A stretch of DNA of 64,000 bases from an uncultured Cetobacterium sp. (GCF_947072685.1 NZ_CAMTIK010000007.1:1-64000); one strand, 5' to 3'; counted from the first letter of the stretch, positions 3,946-15,898 are shown. Notes: generated by a model not told the origin, from the sequence alone. A program made the numbers and translations.

Positions 3946-5709
3946 CTATATTCTTCCCTCCAATTCAATTTTTTTCAAGTAACTTTGATTGAATAGTTCA
4001 ATCTCTCTTCTTGAAAATTCTTTATAGTTTTCAGATGTTATCTCATCTATATTTAAAAATAAATTTGGATAGATACTACACTTATCCAAAATATCTTGAG
4101 ATATCTCATAATCCATTTGAGAGAATAATGAACCGATATTTCTAAATAATAACTCACTCATCCAAAGAGCTAACATATCCATTGGTTTTTCGTTTGGTTG
4201 AAATTCGTGAGTATAATATTTTCTGAATAGTCTAGTCATAAATCTATCAGAATTTGAGTACATTAAAAGTTTTATAAAAGTATCTTTTTTTATGTCCTCT
4301 GTTAAAATTAAATTTTTATTATATTTTAATTCAAAAGTTTTAGAAAACCCTATTTTTAAGATATCTGCTAACTCATTTGGGAAAAATTTATCCGAAACCA
4401 TCTCTTCAGATGTTAGTGTAAATAATGTAGAGTTAGCTAAATTATGAATTCCTTTTTGGAAAAACAAACTTGCATCTCCACCAAAAGTAAGATAGCTCCC
4501 TATTTCGGAAGAGTTTGCGTTGCTACCAACTTCAGAAGTTCCTTGCCATAATAATCTCTTCACTCTATTTTTTTCATAAAATAAAGACATATCTAACAGA
4601 TTGTATAGATAGTCAAAGTATGTATCCAATGTGAGTATAGAATCTAAAAATCGATGCTCATCAAAATTAGTTGTGATCCATTCTTTTTTCATATTTGCGA
4701 TAAAGTTTTTTCCTTCCACAAATATATGGCTTCTATCTCCTTGTGCACTTAAAAATTGTGAGAATTTACTTTCTCCCATTTTAAAGATGCTTGTTTCACT
4801 TGCTCCATAAGTTTTGAAAATAATTTCTCCTTGGTTATTTCCAAGAGAAAATAGTTCTCCAGAATTTGGAATATATATTGTATTTAGACCGTTTTTTATT
4901 TTTAAAGTCTTACTGTATGTGGGTTGGTCTTTATGCTCTAAAAGTAATACTTCACAATCTTTATTAGATATTAAAAGTATATTTTGATTTCCTTGAACAA
5001 ATAAATTTAAAGAGTTTAGCTCTTCAGTTTCTTTTATTTTTAGAGTTTCACAAAATTCTTTTACATTTACTGATGTTTTTTTGATAAAACTATCTTTAGT
5101 TTCATTTATATCATGTTTTGATAAAAAATTATATTTTATAACCTCTATTATTTTTTGAGCTTCTTTATTTTCTGATAGTTCAGTAGCAATTTCATTAATT
5201 AATACAAGATCTAAATAATTTGGAAGATATAGCTTATCGTCAATTTGTTCAATTAAAGTCTGCATATCCATATCAAATTTTAAATTTTGATGTACTTTAG
5301 CTTCATTTATTGTTACAAAACCACCATTACTTGCGTGGACACGTATACAGATTTCTTTAGCAAAAACTGGTTGAAACTGTGCTGTTCTCCATCCAATATT
5401 TTTTTCTGCATCAGTTATTCCATGAACAGATACCCAATCAGATGTAGATATGTTATTTCGATATAAAATTTCATATCTTTGAACAAGTCCCCAGCCTTTA
5501 TTGTTGCTTGTATAAAACTCAACCCCCTCAATTGCTTTATGAGAAGAAAAAGTAAAATAGATATCGGCATAAGAACCAGCACCGTATTTTCCACTTGAAG
5601 CATAAATAGTTTCTAAATTTCCATCTAAAATATTTGTGATTTCATTATTTTCCTGATGAGATAATGTTGCGGATACTTTTGTAAATTCATTCGGTATTTT
5701 ATTATTCAC
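3946..5709 (-). CDS. F5/8 type C domain protein with M60-like C-terminus, probable pseudoenzyme
   Basis: A 587-residue protein starting at GTG, with AAGGAG six bases upstream; the overlapping ATG is followed at once by TGA. Residues about 10-150 form an F5/8 type C (discoidin) domain, starting at 'NILDGNLET' and ending at 'FAKEICIRV'. A helical stretch follows at about 155-210, then a beta-rich region, then an M60-like segment from about residue 330 that matches the end of the downstream gene ('RLLWQG' against 'RIMWQG'). Where M60 peptidases carry HEIGH this protein reads 'FFQKGIHN', so the first zinc-binding histidine and the catalytic glutamate are absent. It may therefore bind glycans or assist the larger partner rather than cleave. 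No signal peptide is visible, which is odd for a predicted glycan-binding protein. The domain calls are fairly sure; the pseudoenzyme reading is inference. Confidence 0.7.
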   Translation of the reverse strand: MNNKIPNEFTKVSATLSHQENNEITNILDGNLETIYASSGKYGAGSYADIYFTFSSHKAIEGVEFYTSNNKGWGLVQRYEILYRNNISTSDWVSVHGITDAEKNIGWRTAQFQPVFAKEICIRVHASNGGFVTINEAKVHQNLKFDMDMQTLIEQIDDKLYLPNYLDLVLINEIATELSENKEAQKIIEVIKYNFLSKHDINETKDSFIKKTSVNVKEFCETLKIKETEELNSLNLFVQGNQNILLISNKDCEVLLLEHKDQPTYSKTLKIKNGLNTIYIPNSGELFSLGNNQGEIIFKTYGASETSIFKMGESKFSQFLSAQGDRSHIFVEGKNFIANMKKEWITTNFDEHRFLDSILTLDTYFDYLYNLLDMSLFYEKNRVKRLLWQGTSEVGSNANSSEIGSYLTFGGDASLFFQKGIHNLANSTLFTLTSEEMVSDKFFPNELADILKIGFSKTFELKYNKNLILTEDIKKDTFIKLLMYSNSDRFMTRLFRKYYTHEFQPNEKPMDMLALWMSELLFRNIGSLFSQMDYEISQDILDKCSIYPNLFLNIDEITSENYKEFSRREIELFNQSYLKKIELEGRI

Positions 5710-5964: not shown

Positions 5965-7404
5965 TCAATTGTTATCAGATACAATTTCTTCCATTTCTTT
6001 ATCTTCTAAAATTGTAGATATATTTGTACCATTATCTTCAATGGTTATTCCAAAAATTCCATAAAATATTGAGATTATTGGACAAATTAAATTAAAAAAA
6101 CAAAATGGTGCGTACATATATGTCGGAACACCGAAAGTGGTTGCTACAAAAGCACCACAAACAGTCCATGGAACTAAAGGTGATGTGATTGTTCCACCAT
6201 CTTCCAAAGCCCTAGATAAATTTTTAGGTGCTAAATTAAAATCTTCATAATTTTTTCGGAACATTCTTCCGGTTATAACGATGGACATATATTGTCCTCC
6301 AGCACATAAATTTGTCAAAAAAGGTGTAATTACTGAAGCTACAACGAGTTTATTTTTTGTATTGGCTATTTTAGAAATTTCAAATGCTAATTTTTCTAAC
6401 ATTCCAGATTTTTCCATTATTCCTGCAAATGTAAGTGCTGAAATAATCAAAGATATTGTCATTAGCATTGAAGACATTCCGCCACGAGTTAAGAGATTAT
6501 CTATTGTTTTAATTCCAGTATTACTATTGTATCCAAATTGAAATACTCTCATAACATCAATCAAAGATCTATTTTGTACAAGAATTGAAGCTCCACCACC
6601 CAATAGCGCTCCTAAAAATAAACCAGGAAGAGCAGGAACTTTCTTTATGACTAATCCTATTGTTAATATTGGTATTAAAATTAACCAAGGTGTTATATTA
6701 AAATTTTCATTTAGAGTATTTAGCATTGAATTAATACCAATATCATTAACTGTTATTGCTGAGTATTTATTTCCTAAAATAACAAAACCTATTAAAGTAA
6801 ATAAATACGCCGGAACAGTAGTGTAGAGCATATGTTTTATATGATCAAATAGTTTTGCTCCAGCCATGAGAGGAGCTAGGTTGGTAGTATCTGATAGCGG
6901 AGACATCTTATCACCAAAATATGCCCCTGATAGAACTGCACCAACTATCACTTCTTTAGGCATACCTAAACCCTCTCCCATACCCATCAATGCAATTCCT
7001 ATCGTGGACATGGTTGTCCATGAACTTCCTGTTGAAATTGATATTAGAGAGCAACTGATTAATGCCACAGGCAAAAATATATTTGGGGTTATCATTTTTA
7101 ACCCATAATATATCATTGTCGGGACAACTCCAGATAGTATCCACGTTCCTATTGACATTCCTATAACGAGTAGTATCAAGATTGGGATAATAACTATTTT
7201 AAGAGTTTCAGAAATTCCAATCTCCAAATCTTTCCAATTGCATTTCAATAAAACTTTACTGACTAAAGCTGCAAACATTGCCGATGCAAAAACTGGAAAA
7301 TGTACGGGTAATTTTGCAATAATAACTGCGTAAAATATTACTATAAGTAAAAATCCTATCGGCAATAAAGCAATAGATAAAGGAATTTCATTTTTACTTT
7401 TCAT
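5965..7404 (-). CDS. nhaC: Na+/H+ antiporter, NhaC family
   Basis: A 479-residue polytopic inner-membrane protein of the usual NhaC length. The family motif 'GAYFGDKMSPLSDTTNLA' is intact near residues 160-180, and the chain is otherwise a series of hydrophobic helices. NhaC proteins exchange intracellular Na+ for external protons, or the reverse, depending on the organism. It is the last gene of the operon, 18 bases after a DASS transporter gene and before a terminator. Because DASS carriers are commonly driven by Na+, a plausible role here is to restore the sodium gradient used for uptake; that link is inference. An NhaC relative with another substrate, such as malate/lactate exchange by MleN, cannot be excluded. 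The ATG follows AGGAG. Confidence 0.85.
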   Translation of the reverse strand: MKSKNEIPLSIALLPIGFLLIVIFYAVIIAKLPVHFPVFASAMFAALVSKVLLKCNWKDLEIGISETLKIVIIPILILLVIGMSIGTWILSGVVPTMIYYGLKMITPNIFLPVALISCSLISISTGSSWTTMSTIGIALMGMGEGLGMPKEVIVGAVLSGAYFGDKMSPLSDTTNLAPLMAGAKLFDHIKHMLYTTVPAYLFTLIGFVILGNKYSAITVNDIGINSMLNTLNENFNITPWLILIPILTIGLVIKKVPALPGLFLGALLGGGASILVQNRSLIDVMRVFQFGYNSNTGIKTIDNLLTRGGMSSMLMTISLIISALTFAGIMEKSGMLEKLAFEISKIANTKNKLVVASVITPFLTNLCAGGQYMSIVITGRMFRKNYEDFNLAPKNLSRALEDGGTITSPLVPWTVCGAFVATTFGVPTYMYAPFCFFNLICPIISIFYGIFGITIEDNGTNISTILEDKEMEEIVSDNN

Positions 7405-7422
7405 AAATTCTCCTATTATAAT

Positions 7423-8856
7423 TTAATTTGATATTATTCCCAAAATATTCCACCAAGGATAGGCGATTCCTAATAAAACAATCAACCCAAATCCCATTCT
7501 AACAATAAGAATTTGTACTAATGTTTTCAACGAAACATATCCAGAAGTATAAACTAATAATAGTCCTGCAAATTCGTAAGGCAATAGATATTGATCCAGT
7601 GAAATTTGAAAAATGTATGTCATTATGTAGGGATTTATGTTGTTTTCGATACCAAGTTGTATCAAAGGTATTGTAAAGGATGACATAGCTGCTAATGGAG
7701 TCAGTAAAAAGTTTAATAAAATTCCAGATATATAAGATACCGTTATGATTGAAAAGATTGATCCTGAAAAAAATGGTTGAAGAAGATTTTTGATTATATT
7801 TATAGCTTGTGTTTCTGATGCTACAGATCCGATACTCATAGCACCCACAATAAATAAAAGCGAAAATAAGTTTATTTTTTTCAAACTGTCATTATTTAAT
7901 AAATCTATCTTAGGTATAAAAAATAAAGATGATAAAACGATTAGAATCCAAGCTGAATTTATTTTGTGGATGCTTTCGGTAGACATCAACAATAGCGCGA
8001 ATCCCATCATCAAGAACGCTTTTTTTTCTTGATTTTTAATTTTTCCTAAATCTAAATATTTCTCTTGTAAAAGTTCTATTTTTTCTTTTGTTAGAGGTTT
8101 TGTATTTTTTGAGAATAAAATTAAAATCCCTAGAGATCCAAACGTATAAAAAAGAACATAAGGCAAGTTATGTATTAAATACTGTGTCCAAGTTAAAACA
8201 CTTCCTGTAACTTGTTGTGCATAGTTTAAACCTATTATAATCCCAGAGTCTCCGGTAGCAAAACCTAATCTGAATGTAGATATAACAAAAAAACCAGCCA
8301 TTATGATAAGTGTAGCTTCTAAACTTTTTGGTTTATATCCTAGGGTTTCAATTAGTCCTATTGTAATAATATTAAAAATTATAATTTTGGCTATTACAGA
8401 TGGAATAAATGGTGTAATTATTATTCCTGCTAATGTTATCCCAAGTAAAATTGTTGAAAATGTTTTCCCAAATTTGGCAATACTCCAAATTCCTATTCTT
8501 CTGGCAACTCCAGTTTCATTTAGCATGGTAGAAATTAACATTGCAGCTAAAACTAACCATGGGATTGTTGATGTCCAGGCTTTAAATGCTACAGCAGGAG
8601 ATGAAACTTTGAATATGACGTATAAAGTTGGGAGTAGTAGCCCTGTTATCGCATCTGGTATTAGTGAAAAGCACCAGAGTAAAATTGCAAAGATAGTTAT
8701 AACGAAAAATATCGATGTTTTATAGTCTAGGCTGTATTTCTGCGTCAGTATCCAAACTATAGTTAGTGTGATAAAAGTTCCAATCCATTTGTAAAAATCA
8801 TCTTTTATTGTGTAGAAAGAGCCTTTTAAGGCTCTTTCACTCTCCATCTCTCTCAT
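7423..8856 (-). CDS. DASS (SLC13) family anion transporter, copy 1
   Basis: A 477-residue polytopic membrane protein with the organisation of the divalent anion:Na+ symporter family (CitT, SdcS, TtdT): hairpin-like 'PW' segments near residue 100, 'GFFVISTFRLGFATGDSG' at about 190, and a second hydrophobic half ending with 'LTPLAAMSSFTIP' and 'LLPYEFAGLL'. Members move dicarboxylates, citrate, tartrate or sulfate with Na+ or by exchange; the substrate cannot be told from sequence. It lies 12 bases downstream of the arylsulfotransferase-thioredoxin gene and 18 bases upstream of nhaC. A second, clearly diverged member (11859-13289) follows the other sulfotransferase gene, so each enzyme seems to have its own carrier. 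The start ATG follows AGGGGG. Confidence 0.82.
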   Translation of the reverse strand: MREMESERALKGSFYTIKDDFYKWIGTFITLTIVWILTQKYSLDYKTSIFFVITIFAILLWCFSLIPDAITGLLLPTLYVIFKVSSPAVAFKAWTSTIPWLVLAAMLISTMLNETGVARRIGIWSIAKFGKTFSTILLGITLAGIIITPFIPSVIAKIIIFNIITIGLIETLGYKPKSLEATLIIMAGFFVISTFRLGFATGDSGIIIGLNYAQQVTGSVLTWTQYLIHNLPYVLFYTFGSLGILILFSKNTKPLTKEKIELLQEKYLDLGKIKNQEKKAFLMMGFALLLMSTESIHKINSAWILIVLSSLFFIPKIDLLNNDSLKKINLFSLLFIVGAMSIGSVASETQAINIIKNLLQPFFSGSIFSIITVSYISGILLNFLLTPLAAMSSFTIPLIQLGIENNINPYIMTYIFQISLDQYLLPYEFAGLLLVYTSGYVSLKTLVQILIVRMGFGLIVLLGIAYPWWNILGIISN

Positions 8857-8868
8857 TTTTAATCCCCC

Positions 8869-10671
8869 TTAAAGGTTTCTTTCTATAAATTCTTCAACTT
8901 CGTCGATTGGGTTAAATCCGGAGAGTCTATCAACAACTTCATTATCTCTTACCAAAAGCAATACTGGAATTGATTTTAAATTATTTTTTGCCATGAAATC
9001 TTTATTTTTATCGGCATCTAAATGGAATGCTATCAGATCAGATTCCTCTTTGTAAATTGGAATCAGTTCTTCTAATATAGGTTGAAGAGCAAGACAATTT
9101 TTACATCTTTCGGCCCCTACAAATATAATTCCAAGATTGTCAATTTTAGATAGCTCATTCTCAATACTATTTTCATCTATATGTGCAAACAGAGAAGAGT
9201 TTATTTTAAATAGCTTTGGTTTTTCCTCCGTTTCATCTCCAGCCGCAACACAAGCGTTTAAAGCGTTCGATTTTTCCCATGCAGAAACACCTTCAACCTT
9301 TACTCTTGTAGCTCCACCTAAAGGTTTTGAACCAGGAACTCTAAAAGTTGAAACATCTATTTTATCAATTTTAGTTTCGATAGGTTTATCAAGTTGTGGA
9401 ACCCACTCATAAGGAACTCTATAGGCTCTATAAACCATATTCATATTCATTATCTCTTTATCCCAATATGGATTGATATATTCCCAAACAATTTCATAAC
9501 TTGAAGTAACTTCTAGGAGTCTACCATTTGATCCTTCTGTGATTAGAGTGTTTCCGTTTGCTAATCTTTGGGCACCACTGATGAATGGACTATAAAATTT
9601 TGAAGCATCTAATGGCATTACAAATCCAGCTTCTTTAGGTGTATATTGCCACACTATCTCTAGTGTAACTGGGTCTATTTCTAATATTCTTGAATAGTCT
9701 CTTCTGGCGTTTTTCTCTCCATATTTTGATTCTGGATTTGGAGAACCGTACCCAGCCCAACCACCGTTGTCGAATACTAAAACATTTCCCTCTCCAGGAA
9801 GCCCTCTAGGAATCATATGCGCGTGATGTTGACCTATGATGCATCCTAAGTGTTTTAATTCAGGAGTATTGTAATATGGACCGATTTGCCATGTGATTTT
9901 ACCAGTTGCTTTGCTGATGATAGCTATTATATTAGTCTCTCTTCCATCCCAAATTATATTGTCTGGATGGAATCTTTCGTCTCCTGCATCATACCATCTA
10001 TTTGGACCTAAAATTGACATGGAGTTAATGTGCATCCAATCTCCAATTTTTTCAGGTTCAACATTTCTTAAATTAGGATTTCTAAACAATACATTTTTAG
10101 CTTCTTCTGAAAATCCAAACTCATCAAAGTGTTCGTTACAAACCCATTCCCATATAATTTTTCCATTTTCATCAACTTCATAGATCACATCATCTAATAA
10201 CAATTTATCTGAAATTTTTAAATTTCTGACAGTTTTGTGTCCTAATATCATGGTCTTTCCACCGATTACCTTTGGTTCCATTCCAGGGACATAATATCCT
10301 ACTGGATTTCCTTCTCTTTGATAATCATGGTGTTGTCTTGCCATCCATCGAGGCTCCATTCCTTCATCGTGGATATGTTCGTATCTGTCAAATCTCCAAA
10401 CTTCATTTCCATCCCAATCTAATTGAACAACATCCTCATAATCTTGCATTCCAAATTTTGAACTTCGTTCTTTTTTACTACCTAAAACATATCCACCAGG
10501 AAACATTTTTGCAGGAAATCCTTTTAAATTTTCCCAAAGTCTTATTTCTCCTCCGTTCATATCGATTAACATAACTCCTTGTCCTTTTAAAGGAAAAAGT
10601 GTATAACCGCTCCATGCTTTTTCTGGATTATAAATTGTAGCTCCTGTTGGATAAATTGTTGGGTGACCCAT
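8869..10671 (-). CDS. Arylsulfotransferase (ASST)-like protein fused to a thioredoxin domain, copy 1
   Basis: A 600-residue protein in two parts. Residues 1-450 are a repetitive beta-propeller of the ASST type, with conserved histidine clusters 'RQHHDY' (112-117), 'MHINS' (213-217) and 'GQHHAH' (280-285) and the family phrase 'LVFDNGG'. In E. coli AssT a histidine carries the sulfuryl group taken from a phenyl sulfate; which histidine does so here is not certain. Residues 510-600 are a thioredoxin fold with CKNC at 523-526 and a cis-proline at about 569; the usual Trp before the first Cys is Arg. Cys 277 next to the His cluster and Cys 178 and 474 are shared with the paralogue at 13348 and could be redox partners. 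There is no signal peptide, so it appears cytoplasmic, unlike periplasmic E. coli AssT. The gene lies between the reductase gene and a DASS transporter gene. The actual substrate is unknown. Confidence 0.8.
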   Translation of the reverse strand: MGHPTIYPTGATIYNPEKAWSGYTLFPLKGQGVMLIDMNGGEIRLWENLKGFPAKMFPGGYVLGSKKERSSKFGMQDYEDVVQLDWDGNEVWRFDRYEHIHDEGMEPRWMARQHHDYQREGNPVGYYVPGMEPKVIGGKTMILGHKTVRNLKISDKLLLDDVIYEVDENGKIIWEWVCNEHFDEFGFSEEAKNVLFRNPNLRNVEPEKIGDWMHINSMSILGPNRWYDAGDERFHPDNIIWDGRETNIIAIISKATGKITWQIGPYYNTPELKHLGCIIGQHHAHMIPRGLPGEGNVLVFDNGGWAGYGSPNPESKYGEKNARRDYSRILEIDPVTLEIVWQYTPKEAGFVMPLDASKFYSPFISGAQRLANGNTLITEGSNGRLLEVTSSYEIVWEYINPYWDKEIMNMNMVYRAYRVPYEWVPQLDKPIETKIDKIDVSTFRVPGSKPLGGATRVKVEGVSAWEKSNALNACVAAGDETEEKPKLFKINSSLFAHIDENSIENELSKIDNLGIIFVGAERCKNCLALQPILEELIPIYKEESDLIAFHLDADKNKDFMAKNNLKSIPVLLLVRDNEVVDRLSGFNPIDEVEEFIERNL

Positions 10672-10700
10672 TTTGTAACCTCCTATTTTATTGTATGCTT

Positions 10701-11843
10701 TTATTTATTGATTATTAACTCAGGGCAAGTGATATTTTCTTTGTCAAAAAATTTAGCTAAATGTTTATTTTTTCTGATATCAACATAGATAAAATCATCA
10801 ATAGAGTTATTTTTTAACTCACTTTCTTTTTCGGAAAGATATTTTAATCCATCACTATCTAAAGAATTCCAAAATCCAATAGCTACTTTCTTATCTTTAA
10901 TTCTGTTTGTATAAATATTCATTTCTTCTAAGTATCTTTCGGCAGAAACGGCAGCAATAGCTCCATCTGCAGCAGCAGTTATAACCTGTTTTAAATATTT
11001 TTCTCTCACATCTCCCGCCACAAAAACTCCAGAGATTGATGAGTTTAATAGGGAATCACACTCTATATGACCTATATTATCAAGTTTTAAACTTGTGTCT
11101 TCTAAAAACTCTGTATTTGGAATCATTCCTACGAAGAAGAAAACACCTTTACAAGATAAATCTGTAATTTCTCCAGTTTTTAGATTTTTTATTTGTACTT
11201 TTTCAACAGATTCTTCACCTATAATTTCATTTAACGTTGAATTCCAAATAAATTCTAATTTTGTATTTTTAAAGGCCTCTTCGGCACTTAGTCTATTACA
11301 ATCTAAAATACCCTCGTCATGCAGCACAATAATTTTTACTTTCGAAGCGTATTTAGAGATGAACATTCCCTCTTCAATAGCTTGATCCCCACTTCCGATT
11401 ACCACCACTTCTTGATTCGAAAAAAATTCAGCATCACATGTAGCGCAATAAGCGACCCCTCTTCCTTTAAAATCTATTTCTCCAGGGATTCCTAAAACTC
11501 TAGGCCTAGTTCCAGTCGCAAATATAATACTTCTAGCTTTATATTCTTTTCTTCTACTTTTTAAAATTTTGATTTCACCTTCGAGTTCTACAGTTCTAAT
11601 ACTATCCCTTACAATTACTGCCCCTAAATTTTCAGCATGCTTAGACATAACTTCTCCAAGTCTTTCTCCTGAAGTCTTAGGTATTCCAGGATAATTGACT
11701 ATTTCTGTAGTTTTTGATGCCATTCCTCCAATAGTCCCTTTTTCTAAAATTAAAGTTTTCATTTTGGCTCTAGCACCATATACACCTGCAGCAAGTCCAG
11801 CTGGTCCAGCTCCAACAATTATTAAATCGTAGATATTTTCCAT
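10701..11843 (-). CDS. Thioredoxin-reductase-like flavoprotein with degenerate thioredoxin tail
   Basis: The ATG at 11843 is chosen over an upstream TTG because GGAGGAG precedes it. The 380-residue protein has an FAD-binding 'GAGPAG' near residue 10, the redox-active CATC at 133-136, a second dinucleotide fold 'GSGDQAIEEG' at about 150-159, and 'GVFVAGDVR' at about 272-280. E. coli TrxB ends near residue 320; here about 65 more residues (315-380) look like a thioredoxin fold ('AIGFWNS', 'YVDIRKNK', 'CPELIINK') without a CxxC. The basic HRRxxxR signature that binds the 2'-phosphate of NADPH in TrxB is replaced by 'LHDEGILDC', so NADH or ferredoxin may be the donor. It sits between the two ASST-thioredoxin/DASS pairs and is probably the reductase for their CKNC domains. 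The family is firm; the partner assignment is inference from context. Confidence 0.85.
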   Translation of the reverse strand: MENIYDLIIVGAGPAGLAAGVYGARAKMKTLILEKGTIGGMASKTTEIVNYPGIPKTSGERLGEVMSKHAENLGAVIVRDSIRTVELEGEIKILKSRRKEYKARSIIFATGTRPRVLGIPGEIDFKGRGVAYCATCDAEFFSNQEVVVIGSGDQAIEEGMFISKYASKVKIIVLHDEGILDCNRLSAEEAFKNTKLEFIWNSTLNEIIGEESVEKVQIKNLKTGEITDLSCKGVFFFVGMIPNTEFLEDTSLKLDNIGHIECDSLLNSSISGVFVAGDVREKYLKQVITAAADGAIAAVSAERYLEEMNIYTNRIKDKKVAIGFWNSLDSDGLKYLSEKESELKNNSIDDFIYVDIRKNKHLAKFFDKENITCPELIINK

Positions 11844-11858
11844 TTTCTCCTCCAATAT

Positions 11859-13289
11859 TTAAAGTAATCCAAGCATCCCCCAATAAGGAACACAAATAAC
11901 TAGTAAAAAAATTATACTTAATATCATTTTTAATAAATATATTTTTACAAACTCTTTTAAACTCATAACACCATAACTAAACATCATTAAAGGTAAGACA
12001 TATTCGTAAGGGAAAATGATTTGTTCCAATCCTATGGCGTATGAATTTATAATCACAGTTGGAGAAATTCCATTTTCAATAGCTGCTTCAATTAGCGGCT
12101 GTGTAAGTGCACTGGCAGCAGCCAAAGGAGTCAATAAAAAGTTAACAATAACTCCGATTAACCAGCTTATTGAAACAATTTCAAAACTATTTCCGTTTAA
12201 GTAAGTTGTTAAAATTTTACCTATGAATGCTCCTGCTCCTGTAGCCATTGAAACAGCTCCTATTGTCATTGCACCAGTCATCAATATAATCATTGACATA
12301 TTTATACTTTTTAAATCTGTTTCTTTGGCTACATCTATACCTGGTAAATAGAAACAAAAAGCGCCAATCGCAAATACCCAACCTGCAGATATATTGTGTA
12401 TACTGCTAGTACATAATATAGTGACCATAATTACTAAAACAAAGATTACTTTTTTTTCATTTGTATTTATTCTCCCCAATTTCAAGTACTCTTTTTCAAA
12501 ATATTCTTTTGTTTTGAAGTGATTTTCTTTTTTAAAAATATTAGCATTTCCTTTATAAAAAAATAAAATAGCAGCTATGTAAACTGCAGATAAGAAAAAT
12601 GTCATAATTCCCATTTCTTTCATATATTCTATCCATGTTAAGTTGACATTGAGAGTTCTTGCTATAGAGTAAGAAATTAAATTTACTCCATCCACAATTG
12701 TCCAAGGTGTTAATGCCATAAATGAGCTACTAGCCATTATAGCGATGGCTTCCTTAGAATTTTTTTTTAAATTTAAAGCGGTTATAATTCCATAAGCGAG
12801 AGGTAAAAATAAAGTTGTTCTCGCAGCAGTACTCGGTATTATTATACACAATATTAAACCAACAATTAGAAATCCTAAAAGAATGCCTTTGTATGTTCCA
12901 CCAGATATTTTTATTGCTGTAATTGCCATTCTATTCATTAGGCCTGTTCTTTCAAAAACACTTGATATGATCATTCCACCGATAAATAACCATGGCATCT
13001 CAGTTGTCCATGGAGAAAATGCTTGAGTAGGGGTAGCTAATCCTAAACTGATATAAACTATCGGTAAAACTAGTGCAGGAGCAGCTAAAGGCATAAGTTC
13101 GAAAGCCCAAATCATTATAACTAAAATTGTAATCATAAAGAATGTTCTGATACTATATGTGTAACTTTCGTTTATCTGTATTAACATAGGAGTAAACATT
13201 ATCATCAGTGAAATAACCCATTTTATAAATTTCTTTTTATCAAATTTACTTTCCTCTAATATATTGTCTAGCTTTGCAATATTTTCCAT
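11859..13289 (-). CDS. DASS (SLC13) family anion transporter, copy 2
   Basis: A 476-residue polytopic inner-membrane protein of the divalent anion:Na+ symporter family. It shares with copy 1 'PWLFIGGMIISS' near residue 100, 'LLTPLAAASALTQP' near 385 and 'PYEYVLPLMMFSYG', but much of the rest has diverged, which suggests an old duplication with a different substrate. It is translated from AGGAGG directly after a strong hairpin that follows the sulfotransferase gene, and its stop lies just before the Shine-Dalgarno of the reductase gene. The position implies uptake or exchange of the substrate or product of the preceding ASST-thioredoxin protein. The substrate (sulfate, sulfonate, dicarboxylate or aryl anion) is unknown. 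Confidence 0.82.
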   Translation of the reverse strand: MENIAKLDNILEESKFDKKKFIKWVISLMIMFTPMLIQINESYTYSIRTFFMITILVIMIWAFELMPLAAPALVLPIVYISLGLATPTQAFSPWTTEMPWLFIGGMIISSVFERTGLMNRMAITAIKISGGTYKGILLGFLIVGLILCIIIPSTAARTTLFLPLAYGIITALNLKKNSKEAIAIMASSSFMALTPWTIVDGVNLISYSIARTLNVNLTWIEYMKEMGIMTFFLSAVYIAAILFFYKGNANIFKKENHFKTKEYFEKEYLKLGRINTNEKKVIFVLVIMVTILCTSSIHNISAGWVFAIGAFCFYLPGIDVAKETDLKSINMSMIILMTGAMTIGAVSMATGAGAFIGKILTTYLNGNSFEIVSISWLIGVIVNFLLTPLAAASALTQPLIEAAIENGISPTVIINSYAIGLEQIIFPYEYVLPLMMFSYGVMSLKEFVKIYLLKMILSIIFLLVICVPYWGMLGLL

Positions 13290-13301
13290 AATATCCTCCT
13301 A

Positions 13302-13340
13302 TTTAAGAAGGTTACCCTTTTTTGAGGTAACCTTCTTAAA
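13302..13340 (-). promoter_or_regulatory. Perfect 15-bp intercistronic hairpin without a U-tract
   Basis: Two perfectly complementary 15-base arms (13302-13316 and 13326-13340) flank a 9-base loop between the stop of the second ASST gene and the AGGAGG of the transporter gene. On neither strand is it followed by a T-run, so it is not a standard terminator. It may stabilise the upstream message, be a processing site, or lower translation of the transporter; this is inference. Confidence 0.6.
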
Positions 13341-13347
13341 ATTAATA

Positions 13348-15135
13348 TTACTGCTCTAAGAACTCTTCTACCTCGTCAATTGAATGTGATCCTATCAATC
13401 TTCCCTTTAACTCCCCATTTTTATATAATAGTAAAGTTGGAATAGATTTTATTTTATTGTTTTCTAAGTATATCTTTTCTTTATCAGCATCAAGGTGATA
13501 TTGTTCAAATTGCCCCTCGAAATCAGGTAAAATCTCTTCGAGTATAGGTTGTAAAGCCCTACAGTTTTTACATCGCTCAGCTCCAACAAAAACAAGAATA
13601 TTTTTATTTTCACTAATAATGCTATCTAATTTTGTAGATGTAATCCCTGGGAATAGTTGTTCGTTTATATCAAATAATTTAGGCTTTTCTTGTACTTCAT
13701 CCCCGGCTGCAACACAAGCACTCAAAGCATCAGCCATAACATATGGAAGAGTACCCTCTACTTTTATCCTGCTAGAAACACCGCTAGGAGCTGCCCCAGG
13801 AACTCTAAATGTTGAAACATCTATTTTTTCTATAGGTATTTCGATAGGCTTTTCGATTTGAGGAACCCAGTCATATGGAGCTCTGTATGATCTATAAATC
13901 ATATTCATGTTCATGATTTCTTTGTCCCATCTTGGATTTATATATTCCCAAACAATTTCAAAGTCAGATGTCACTTCAATCAATCTACCATTAGATCCTT
14001 CTGTGATTAAAGTGTTACCGTTTGGTAATCTTTGAGCGCCACTAATGAATGGGCTGTAAAATCTTGAAGCATCTAGTGGCATCACAAATCCAGCTTCTAA
14101 TGGAGTATATTTCCAAACAATTTCTAATGTAAGTGGATCTATTTCTAGAACTCTAGAAAAATCTCTTCTTGCATTTTTTTCTCCAAATTTCGAAACAGGA
14201 TTTGGAGCACCATATCCTGCCCATCCGCCGTTATCAAAAACAAGTATATTTCCTTCACCAGGAAGTCCTCTTGGAATCATATGCGCATGATGCTGCCCAA
14301 TAATACATCCTAAATGTTTGAGCTCTTTTGTATTATAATCGGGACCTATTTTCCATACAATTTCTCCTGTTTTTTTACTTATTATTGCAATGATATTTGT
14401 TTCTCTTGCATCCCAGATTATATTATCTGGATGAAATCTTTCATCTCCTGCATCATAAAATCTATTTGGCCCCAATACAGACATTGAGTTAATATGCATC
14501 CAATCTCCTACTTTTTCAGGGTGAGTAGCTCTTAAATTAGGGTCTCTAAATAGGACGTTTTTAGCTTCTTCTGAAAAACCTAGTTCATCAAAATGTTCAT
14601 TACATGACCATTCCCAGATAACTTTGTTATTTTCATCCACCTCATAGATCACATCATCGTGTAATAGTTTATCTGAAATTTTATGGTTTCTAATATTTTT
14701 ATGCCCTAATATTAACGTTTTTCCACCACCTATTTTAGGCTCCATTCCAGGAACAAAATATCCAACTGGATTTCCTTCTCTTTGGTAATCATGATGTTGT
14801 CTTGCCATCCATCTAGGATTTTCGCCCTCATCTTCAACATGTTCATATTCATCAAATTTCCAAACAAGATTTCCATCCCAATCTAATTCAACTAAATCAA
14901 TTTGATCTTGCATTCCAAATTTAGGATTTCGTTCCCCTCTACTACCTAAAATATGCCCATTAGGAAAAAGTTTATTTGGAAATCCTTGTAAACCTTCCCA
15001 TAAACGAATTTCCCGACCATTCATATCAATTAACATTGCACCTAAACCAATTAAATTAAATACTGTGTAACCATTCCATGCTTTTTCTGGATTATAAATT
15101 GTAGCTCCTGTTGGATAAATCGTAGGATGACCCAT
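13348..15135 (-). CDS. Arylsulfotransferase (ASST)-like protein fused to a thioredoxin domain, copy 2
   Basis: A 595-residue paralogue of the protein at 8869, very similar by eye throughout the propeller and less so in the last 150 residues. The same histidine clusters occur at the same positions (RQHHDY 112-117, MHINS 213-217, GQHHAH 280-285), with the shared Cys near the last cluster. The C-terminal thioredoxin domain has CKNC at 522-525 and 'SIPTLLL' with the cis-proline. The linker phrase 'ACVAAGDE' is conserved between the copies, so the linker and its Cys probably matter. There is no signal peptide. It is the first gene of the operon, behind a 360-base upstream region. The two copies have presumably diverged in substrate, as have their transporters. 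The ATG follows GGAGG. Confidence 0.8.
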   Translation of the reverse strand: MGHPTIYPTGATIYNPEKAWNGYTVFNLIGLGAMLIDMNGREIRLWEGLQGFPNKLFPNGHILGSRGERNPKFGMQDQIDLVELDWDGNLVWKFDEYEHVEDEGENPRWMARQHHDYQREGNPVGYFVPGMEPKIGGGKTLILGHKNIRNHKISDKLLHDDVIYEVDENNKVIWEWSCNEHFDELGFSEEAKNVLFRDPNLRATHPEKVGDWMHINSMSVLGPNRFYDAGDERFHPDNIIWDARETNIIAIISKKTGEIVWKIGPDYNTKELKHLGCIIGQHHAHMIPRGLPGEGNILVFDNGGWAGYGAPNPVSKFGEKNARRDFSRVLEIDPLTLEIVWKYTPLEAGFVMPLDASRFYSPFISGAQRLPNGNTLITEGSNGRLIEVTSDFEIVWEYINPRWDKEIMNMNMIYRSYRAPYDWVPQIEKPIEIPIEKIDVSTFRVPGAAPSGVSSRIKVEGTLPYVMADALSACVAAGDEVQEKPKLFDINEQLFPGITSTKLDSIISENKNILVFVGAERCKNCRALQPILEEILPDFEGQFEQYHLDADKEKIYLENNKIKSIPTLLLYKNGELKGRLIGSHSIDEVEEFLEQ

Positions 15136-15498: not shown

Positions 15499-15864
15499 TT
15501 AGAAAAGAACATTACAAGTTCTAAGATCTATATTTGAATGTATTAGTATATTTCTTTTTGTACAAGGGCACCCGTGAATAGCTTCACAAATTTTTTCAAA
15601 GTTACTATTTCTAACAATATAAGATTCTACACAAATATCTAAAGTTTTTCTCATATCTCTCAAATTACACGGGTATATGAGAACAATTTCACCTTTATTA
15701 ACATTTAATCCTTCTAAAACCTCAAGAGTAACATTGTTAATACTATTAAATTTATGAAGTATATTATTTTTAGTATCCAGAATAAATCCCTCTCCTATAT
15801 TAAAAAGATTCTCTTTTATAATATCTTTGTAAGAATTTGTAAGTTTTTCATAAGCTATAATCAT
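15499..15864 (-). CDS. Small Cys-rich protein of unknown function
   Basis: The ATG at 15864 is preferred because AAAGGGG ends eight bases before it; an ATG seven codons further upstream lacks such a site. The product is 121 residues, soluble, without signal peptide or membrane segment. Five cysteines lie in the C-terminal half outside the first 'YPCN' motif, including 'HGCPCTKRN' and one six residues from the end ('RTCNVLF'), which could bind a metal or form disulfides. I do not recognise the family. It has its own promoter and terminator and lies just upstream of the sulfotransferase operon on the same strand, so a redox-sensing or regulatory link is conceivable but not supported by any domain. 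Confidence 0.6.
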   Translation of the reverse strand: MIIAYEKLTNSYKDIIKENLFNIGEGFILDTKNNILHKFNSINNVTLEVLEGLNVNKGEIVLIYPCNLRDMRKTLDICVESYIVRNSNFEKICEAIHGCPCTKRNILIHSNIDLRTCNVLF

Positions 15865-15898
15865 GGTATCAACCCCTTTATTCATTTTATTACTATAG

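Follow-up and report, generated by a model that had tools for sequence, protein, structure and literature searches.

A putative thiol-coupled family of cytoplasmic arylsulfotransferases, encoded twice in a Cetobacterium operon, that may release sulfite from organic sulfate esters

The stretch of DNA analysed here, 64,000 nucleotides from an uncultured Cetobacterium sp. (hereafter the window), holds a six-gene operon on the minus strand (Table 1). We consider it reasonably probable that its two fusion proteins are variants, for different substrates, of a cytoplasmic, thiol-coupled arylsulfotransferase (ASST), which would convert organic sulfate esters to an alcohol or phenol plus sulfite. For the wider family, the chances seem a little better than even that its members form a putative, so far undescribed enzyme class, the reductive sulfatases (or organosulfate reductases), in which a His-to-Cys sulfuryl relay coupled to a dithiol (thioredoxin, or glutaredoxin-like or lipoyl proteins) would let anaerobes of at least four phyla supply sulfite respiration and assimilation without spending ATP. 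ASST chemistry, the cysteine tail of APS reductases, and thioredoxin (Trx) are known parts; what would be new is their combination to yield sulfite from organosulfates without ATP, and, if confirmed, this would be a new pathway. A literature search, with most subscription papers outside its reach, found no published description of such a pathway. On the usual view, sulfate reducers and assimilators must invest ATP in activating sulfate before they can reduce it. If our reading is true, direct reduction of an ester's sulfuryl group, which is activated already, would bypass this cost and be a source of sulfite, and hence of H2S, for organisms that do not activate sulfate, including Cetobacterium and gut Lachnospiraceae. 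It would also link sulfate conjugates from hosts or plants to sulfide production by bacteria, and put right the “aryl-sulfate sulfotransferase” label that these genes now carry.

Table 1. Genes of the operon and landmarks within fusion 1 (window coordinates).
Feature	Coordinates	Strand	Remarks
ASST-Trx fusion 1, 595 aa	13348..15135	-	Cytoplasmic arylsulfotransferase propeller, Cys tail, and C-terminal thioredoxin domain (Pfam)
DASS-type (SLC13-like) anion carrier 1, 476 aa	11859..13289	-	
TrxR-like flavoprotein	10701..11855	-	CATC at 11436-11447; extra C-terminal extension of ~75 aa
ASST-Trx fusion 2, 600 aa	8869..10671	-	H282 in 9817-9837; C474 in 9238-9252; CKNC at 9094-9105
DASS-type anion carrier 2, 477 aa	7423..8856	-	
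NhaC-family antiporter, 479 aa	5965..7404	-	
IGQHHAH, residues 279-285 of fusion 1	14281..14301	-	H282 corresponds to His436, the nucleophile that is sulfated in E. coli ASST
MHINS, residues 213-217 of fusion 1	14485..14499	-	H214 and N216 correspond to His356 and Asn358 of the E. coli enzyme
CVAAG of fusion 1, holds C474	13702..13716	-	Low-confidence (flexible) tail
Thioredoxin domain of fusion 1, about residues 500-594	13354..13638	-	CKNC at 13561-13572

The first-pass annotation of this DNA had described six tightly spaced genes with these family assignments, and both the assignments and the spacing (gaps of 3-58 nt) hold. Each fusion is built from a propeller of ~460 residues, a tail of ~40 residues, and a Trx domain; both begin MGHPTIYPTG and, as had been claimed, both carry CKNC. 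They score 73.4 and 75.8 bits with Pfam Arylsulfotrans (PF05935; gathering cut-off, 24.2) and 52.1 and 40.3 bits with Pfam Thioredoxin (PF00085; gathering cut-off, 23.5). The proposed absence of an export signal is borne out, with no signal peptide seen at the start of either protein. The thioredoxin reductase (TrxR)-like protein has its CATC motif and scores 341.5 with NCBIfam TIGR01292, for which the cut-off is 343.45. Both DASS proteins pass Pfam PF00939 and reach 76-78 with TIGR00785, below its cut-off of 198.6; on these scores, they are distant members of DASS. The NhaC protein lies above the TIGR00931 cut-off (447 vs. 370). Promoter and terminator scans gave matches no better than chance. 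The operon is flanked downstream by a gene for an F5/8 type C domain protein (window 3946-5709) and upstream by a 128-aa open reading frame without a confident family match (window 15499-15885).

The earlier description of a duplicated operon was right in substance. Because other Cetobacterium genomes have both units as separate loci, the window holds two neighbouring paralogous units with one common TrxR. The window's own genome is of Cetobacterium type and 2.15 Mb in size. The unit TrxR, ASST1, and DASS1 stands separately in Cetobacterium genomes G005, G009, and G006, and the unit TrxR, ASST2, DASS2, and NhaC in G005, G004, and plasmid p2 of C. somerae. That there are two paralogues, each with its own DASS carrier, suggests two substrates.

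To align the active site, we used E. coli ASST (L107 43857-45653) as the reference. Its His436 is the residue sulfated during catalysis (PMC13426309) and corresponds to H282 of the family; His356 corresponds to H214, Asn358 to N216, Arg374 to R244, and His252 to the H114/H115 pair. In an alignment of 90 rows (the first 76 members plus 14 Lachnospiraceae rows, where L124 repeats L028 and L131 and L132 are near-identical), H282, R244, N216, H114, and H115 each occur in 90/90 and H214 in 89/90. Thr501 of the E. coli enzyme is not kept; its place is taken by I364 in 86/90 rows, next to S365 in 90/90. The predicted structure of fusion 1 (mean pLDDT 87.8) gave Foldseek matches of its propeller to 9kf6, 3ets, and 3elq with a probability of 1.00, the best fold matches being Cpz4 and E. 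coli ASST. The propeller histidines had already been noted as retained, and the alignment finds the sulfuryl-transfer site intact. Since the site residues of E. coli ASST are kept and the predicted fold matches Cpz4 and E. coli ASST, sulfuryl transfer is the likely chemistry of the family.

A second feature is a cysteine in the tail. The first-pass annotation left it out, as it did the likely product, sulfite, and the connection with sulfite reductase. C474 is the sole invariant Cys across the first 76 members (76/76), and it is present in 89/90 rows once Lachnospiraceae are added; the divergent member L138 has no aligned C474. Three Lachnospiraceae members (L125, L129, and L135) have no other Cys at all. 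In most unfused members, the protein ends ~10 residues after C474; in fused ones, C474 lies shortly before the Trx domain. The model gives this segment a pLDDT of 45-77, and the tail is predicted to be disordered or flexible. C474 resembles, as an analogous feature only, the conserved Cys on the mobile C-terminal tail of APS/PAPS reductases, and no tail of this type is found in E. coli ASST or in the secreted relatives from Calothrix and Mailhella. A tail Cys so invariant, together with several alternative dithiol partners, suggests a catalytic role.

These partners take various forms. Trx is fused in 29 loci. We scored 44 unfused loci for dithiol genes within 7 kb of ASST and found a glutaredoxin (Grx)-like CxxC protein (cluster 5) in 18, GcvH in 9, and dihydrolipoyl dehydrogenase (Lpd) in 9, with LipA and LipB also present in 3; the GcvH and Lpd representatives are above their NCBIfam cut-offs. 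The scored types were absent within 7 kb in 25/44, Bacilli included. Loci of Bacillaceae and Paenibacillaceae have an ABC transporter only, and cellular Trx would therefore have to serve. Near the unfused ASST of locus L046 lie genes for a free Trx, for a relative of the window's TrxR, and for the Grx-like protein. Most Lachnospiraceae loci have a free Trx and/or TrxR adjoining ASST, with free Trx beside or near it in L129, L131, L132, and L134-L137 and TrxR in L126-L128, L131-L133, and L136. Comparison supports the idea that a reductase of its own serves the dithiol step, with Trx and TrxR recurring, fused or adjacent, across phyla. In L021, L029, and L030, genes for GcvH, Lpd, LipB, and LipA lie next to ASST, and no glycine-cleavage P or T genes were seen near ASST in these loci, which suggests a dedicated lipoyl redox carrier. 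The cluster 5 protein (L029:2489-3331 and 20 relatives) has a Grx-like CxxC N-terminus and an NrdG2-like C-terminus that seems to be without the cluster cysteines; no Pfam match was listed for it at E 1e-4.

Sulfite as the product is suggested by the company that ASST keeps in Lachnospiraceae. A siroheme sulfite/nitrite reductase lies within the ASST cluster in 4/15 Lachnospiraceae loci. For example, it begins 21 bases after ASST in L125, although this protein could be a nitrite reductase instead, and it lies ~2.5 kb from ASST in L131 and L132. In the fourth, L134, the order is ABC transporter, ASST, OAH/OAS sulfhydrylase-like protein, AsrC-like reductase, TusA, Trx, ThiF, and JAB protein; the part from the sulfhydrylase-like gene through the JAB gene (L134:8203-12515) looks like a compact sulfur-assimilation cluster. 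Proximity to a siroheme reductase is expected by chance at roughly 0.7% per locus vs. the 4/15 observed, for which a rough chance estimate is 3e-6, or 1e-4 with the near-identical L131 and L132 counted once. The ATP sulfurylase domain (PF01747) is absent from 14/14 Lachnospiraceae carriers. In the window's genome, neither PF01747 nor PF01507 (CysD/CysH) was found, and AsrA, AsrB, and AsrC are above their cut-offs. Sulfite made by ASST would, we infer, feed AsrABC or the clustered reductases. AsrABC was rejected as specific proof: Cetobacterium without ASST also have sulfite-reductase genes, and the link is consistent rather than specific. Similarly, a sulfite reductase occurs in 46/49 carrier genomes, a count that discriminates little because most carriers are sulfate reducers or enterics.

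Taken together, the route could run as follows. An organosulfate anion would be imported by DASS, possibly by NhaC, and its sulfuryl group would pass to H282 in ping-pong fashion, as the conserved residues suggest by homology with the E. coli enzyme. The mobile tail would then carry C474 to the active site, where C474 would accept the group as Cys-S-SO3- (an S-sulfocysteine thiosulfonate); we infer this step from the invariance of C474, its position in the tail, and the parallel with APS/PAPS reductases. The CKNC of the fused Trx would attack the thiosulfonate, free sulfite, and become a disulfide, which the TrxR-like protein would re-reduce; both partners are encoded in the operon. Sulfite would finally pass to AsrABC, whose genes are present. 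Because the sulfuryl group would never leave as sulfate, ATP sulfurylase and APS/PAPS reductase would be bypassed. There is precedent for the release: Trx frees sulfite from an enzyme thiosulfonate in bacterial and plant APS/PAPS reductases, with a fused C-terminal Trx-fold domain doing so in plant APR (PMC6827007), and glutaredoxins release sulfite from free S-sulfocysteine (PMC3528435).

Anion importers had been proposed beside the enzyme, and DASS genes do adjoin both fusions. Across the loci, the transport partners include DASS, NhaC, SsuABC-like ABC, TTT (TctA/TctC), TRAP, and MFS carriers; the property that they share points to an organic anion, and their variety suggests several different esters. 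The role in sodium recycling given to NhaC by the first-pass annotation was set aside: NhaC adjoins ASST in L013 and L022, two clostridial loci that showed no DASS gene, and a carrier of substrate or product fits at least as well. That annotation stands in part: as to the missing export signal, the sulfuryl site, the dithiol step, the importers, and the neighbourhood, but not as to NhaC. The SsuA/SsuC-like ABC partners and the breadth of transporters (DASS, TTT, TRAP, ABC, and MFS) would also suit a different donor, either an S-S or other activated sulfonyl compound (thiosulfate-like, S-sulfo-thiol, or sulfamate) or a sulfonate brought in by SsuABC-like carriers, with the same His-Cys-Trx relay to sulfite. 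We regard this as unlikely, since the donor site of E. coli ASST is intact in the family and alkylsulfatase-like genes lie near two loci. As for sulfonates, sulfuryl transfer is, on general chemical grounds, not known to cleave unactivated C-S bonds; SsuA-type binding proteins, moreover, have sulfate esters among their ligands too. The alkylsulfatase-like metallo-beta-lactamase proteins (PF14863) are found in Desulfosporosinus (L047:8237-9526) and Mailhella (L078:11982-13301), two unrelated lineages, and point to sulfate esters as substrates.

It is also conceivable, if rather improbable, that these are ordinary ASSTs with a small-molecule acceptor, in which C474 and Trx serve in redox protection or regulation. 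The active-site set matches that of characterised ASSTs. However, genes for making an acceptor are not conserved at the loci, sulfite-assimilation genes cluster with ASST in Lachnospiraceae, and C474 with its alternative dithiol partners suggests catalysis. Least probable, and doubtful, is that the Trx domain reduces another organic product or that sulfur is passed on as a persulfide, sulfuryl transfer being lost or incidental: TusA, ThiF, and the JAB protein of L134 and the use of lipoyl proteins as carriers in sulfur-oxidation systems would fit, but every sulfuryl-site residue is kept except the Thr501 equivalent.

Among known systems, we keep the family near ASST because it shares the fold of that enzyme and, probably, its first half-reaction. 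E. coli CFT073 ASST (PDB 3ELQ/3ETS) shares the propeller fold and H252, H356, N358, R374, and H436. However, it is periplasmic, with an N-terminal beta-sandwich, a Dsb-dependent disulfide, and phenol acceptors, whereas the window proteins start at the propeller and, in the alignment, lack the segments for the signal peptide, the beta-sandwich, and the disulfide pair. Conversely, the window family has the Cys tail and Trx that the E. coli enzyme lacks. The best structural match, Cpz4 of Streptomyces (PDB 9kf4/9kf6), is a PAPS-independent sulfotransferase with only 18-20% sequence identity to the family; its product is a sulfated antibiotic, and we know of no Trx linked to it. APS/PAPS reductases, including plant APR, have a proposed enzyme-Cys thiosulfonate from which Trx or a fused Trx-fold domain frees sulfite (PMC6827007), as proposed here, but their fold is unrelated and their substrate is ATP-activated sulfate rather than an organic ester; PF01507, the APS/PAPS reductase domain, had no match in the operon proteins. 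Aryl and alkyl sulfatases also free the alcohol from sulfate esters, but they hydrolyse to sulfate, and re-use of that sulfate needs ATP sulfurylase and APS/PAPS reductase, both missing from the window's genome. In the IslA (isethionate sulfite-lyase) pathway of Bilophila, the sulfite that is reduced anaerobically also comes from an organic sulfur anion, but through glycyl-radical C-S cleavage of a sulfonate.

The family extends well beyond the window, and a conserved neighbourhood, the absence of which had been set beforehand as grounds for rejecting the first reading, was found in other genomes. Our genome scan gave 79 loci, from Fusobacteriota, Bacillota, Desulfobacterota/Myxococcota, and Enterobacterales; the carriers include gut, soil, and plant-associated bacteria. 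Among 61 Fusobacteriaceae genomes, the family occurs in 6/12 of Cetobacterium and in no other genus. The fused form (~595 aa) is found in Cetobacterium, Lachnospiraceae, and Enterobacterales, the last comprising Pectobacterium, Brenneria, Yersinia, Klebsiella, Raoultella, Enterobacter, Kluyvera, and one Serratia assembly; for the Klebsiella-type fused gene, E. coli genomes gave no close match at the DNA level. The form without Trx (~480 aa) reaches 72% identity with ASST1 and is known here from Moorella, Desulforamulus, Desulfosporosinus, Desulfovibrio/Mailhella, Desulfobacterales, Myxococcota, Paenibacillus, and Neobacillus. In a quickly built tree, the label switches between fused and unfused at least two times, but the linkers resemble one another (PKLF). 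Secreted relatives without the Cys tail, 33-45% identical to ASST1, were seen at L075:12364-13653, L081:4277-5662, and L005:7854-9314; in the Mailhella locus L081, the secreted relative is encoded near the cytoplasmic form.

The TrxR partners also differ among loci. Those accompanying mostly fused ASSTs (window 10701-11855, L126, L127, L128, L133, and L046) have a C-terminal extension of ~75-90 aa, and those adjoining a free Trx (L131, L132, and L136) are without it. The extension resembles a degenerate Trx half-fold without CxxC, and it is possibly a docking domain.
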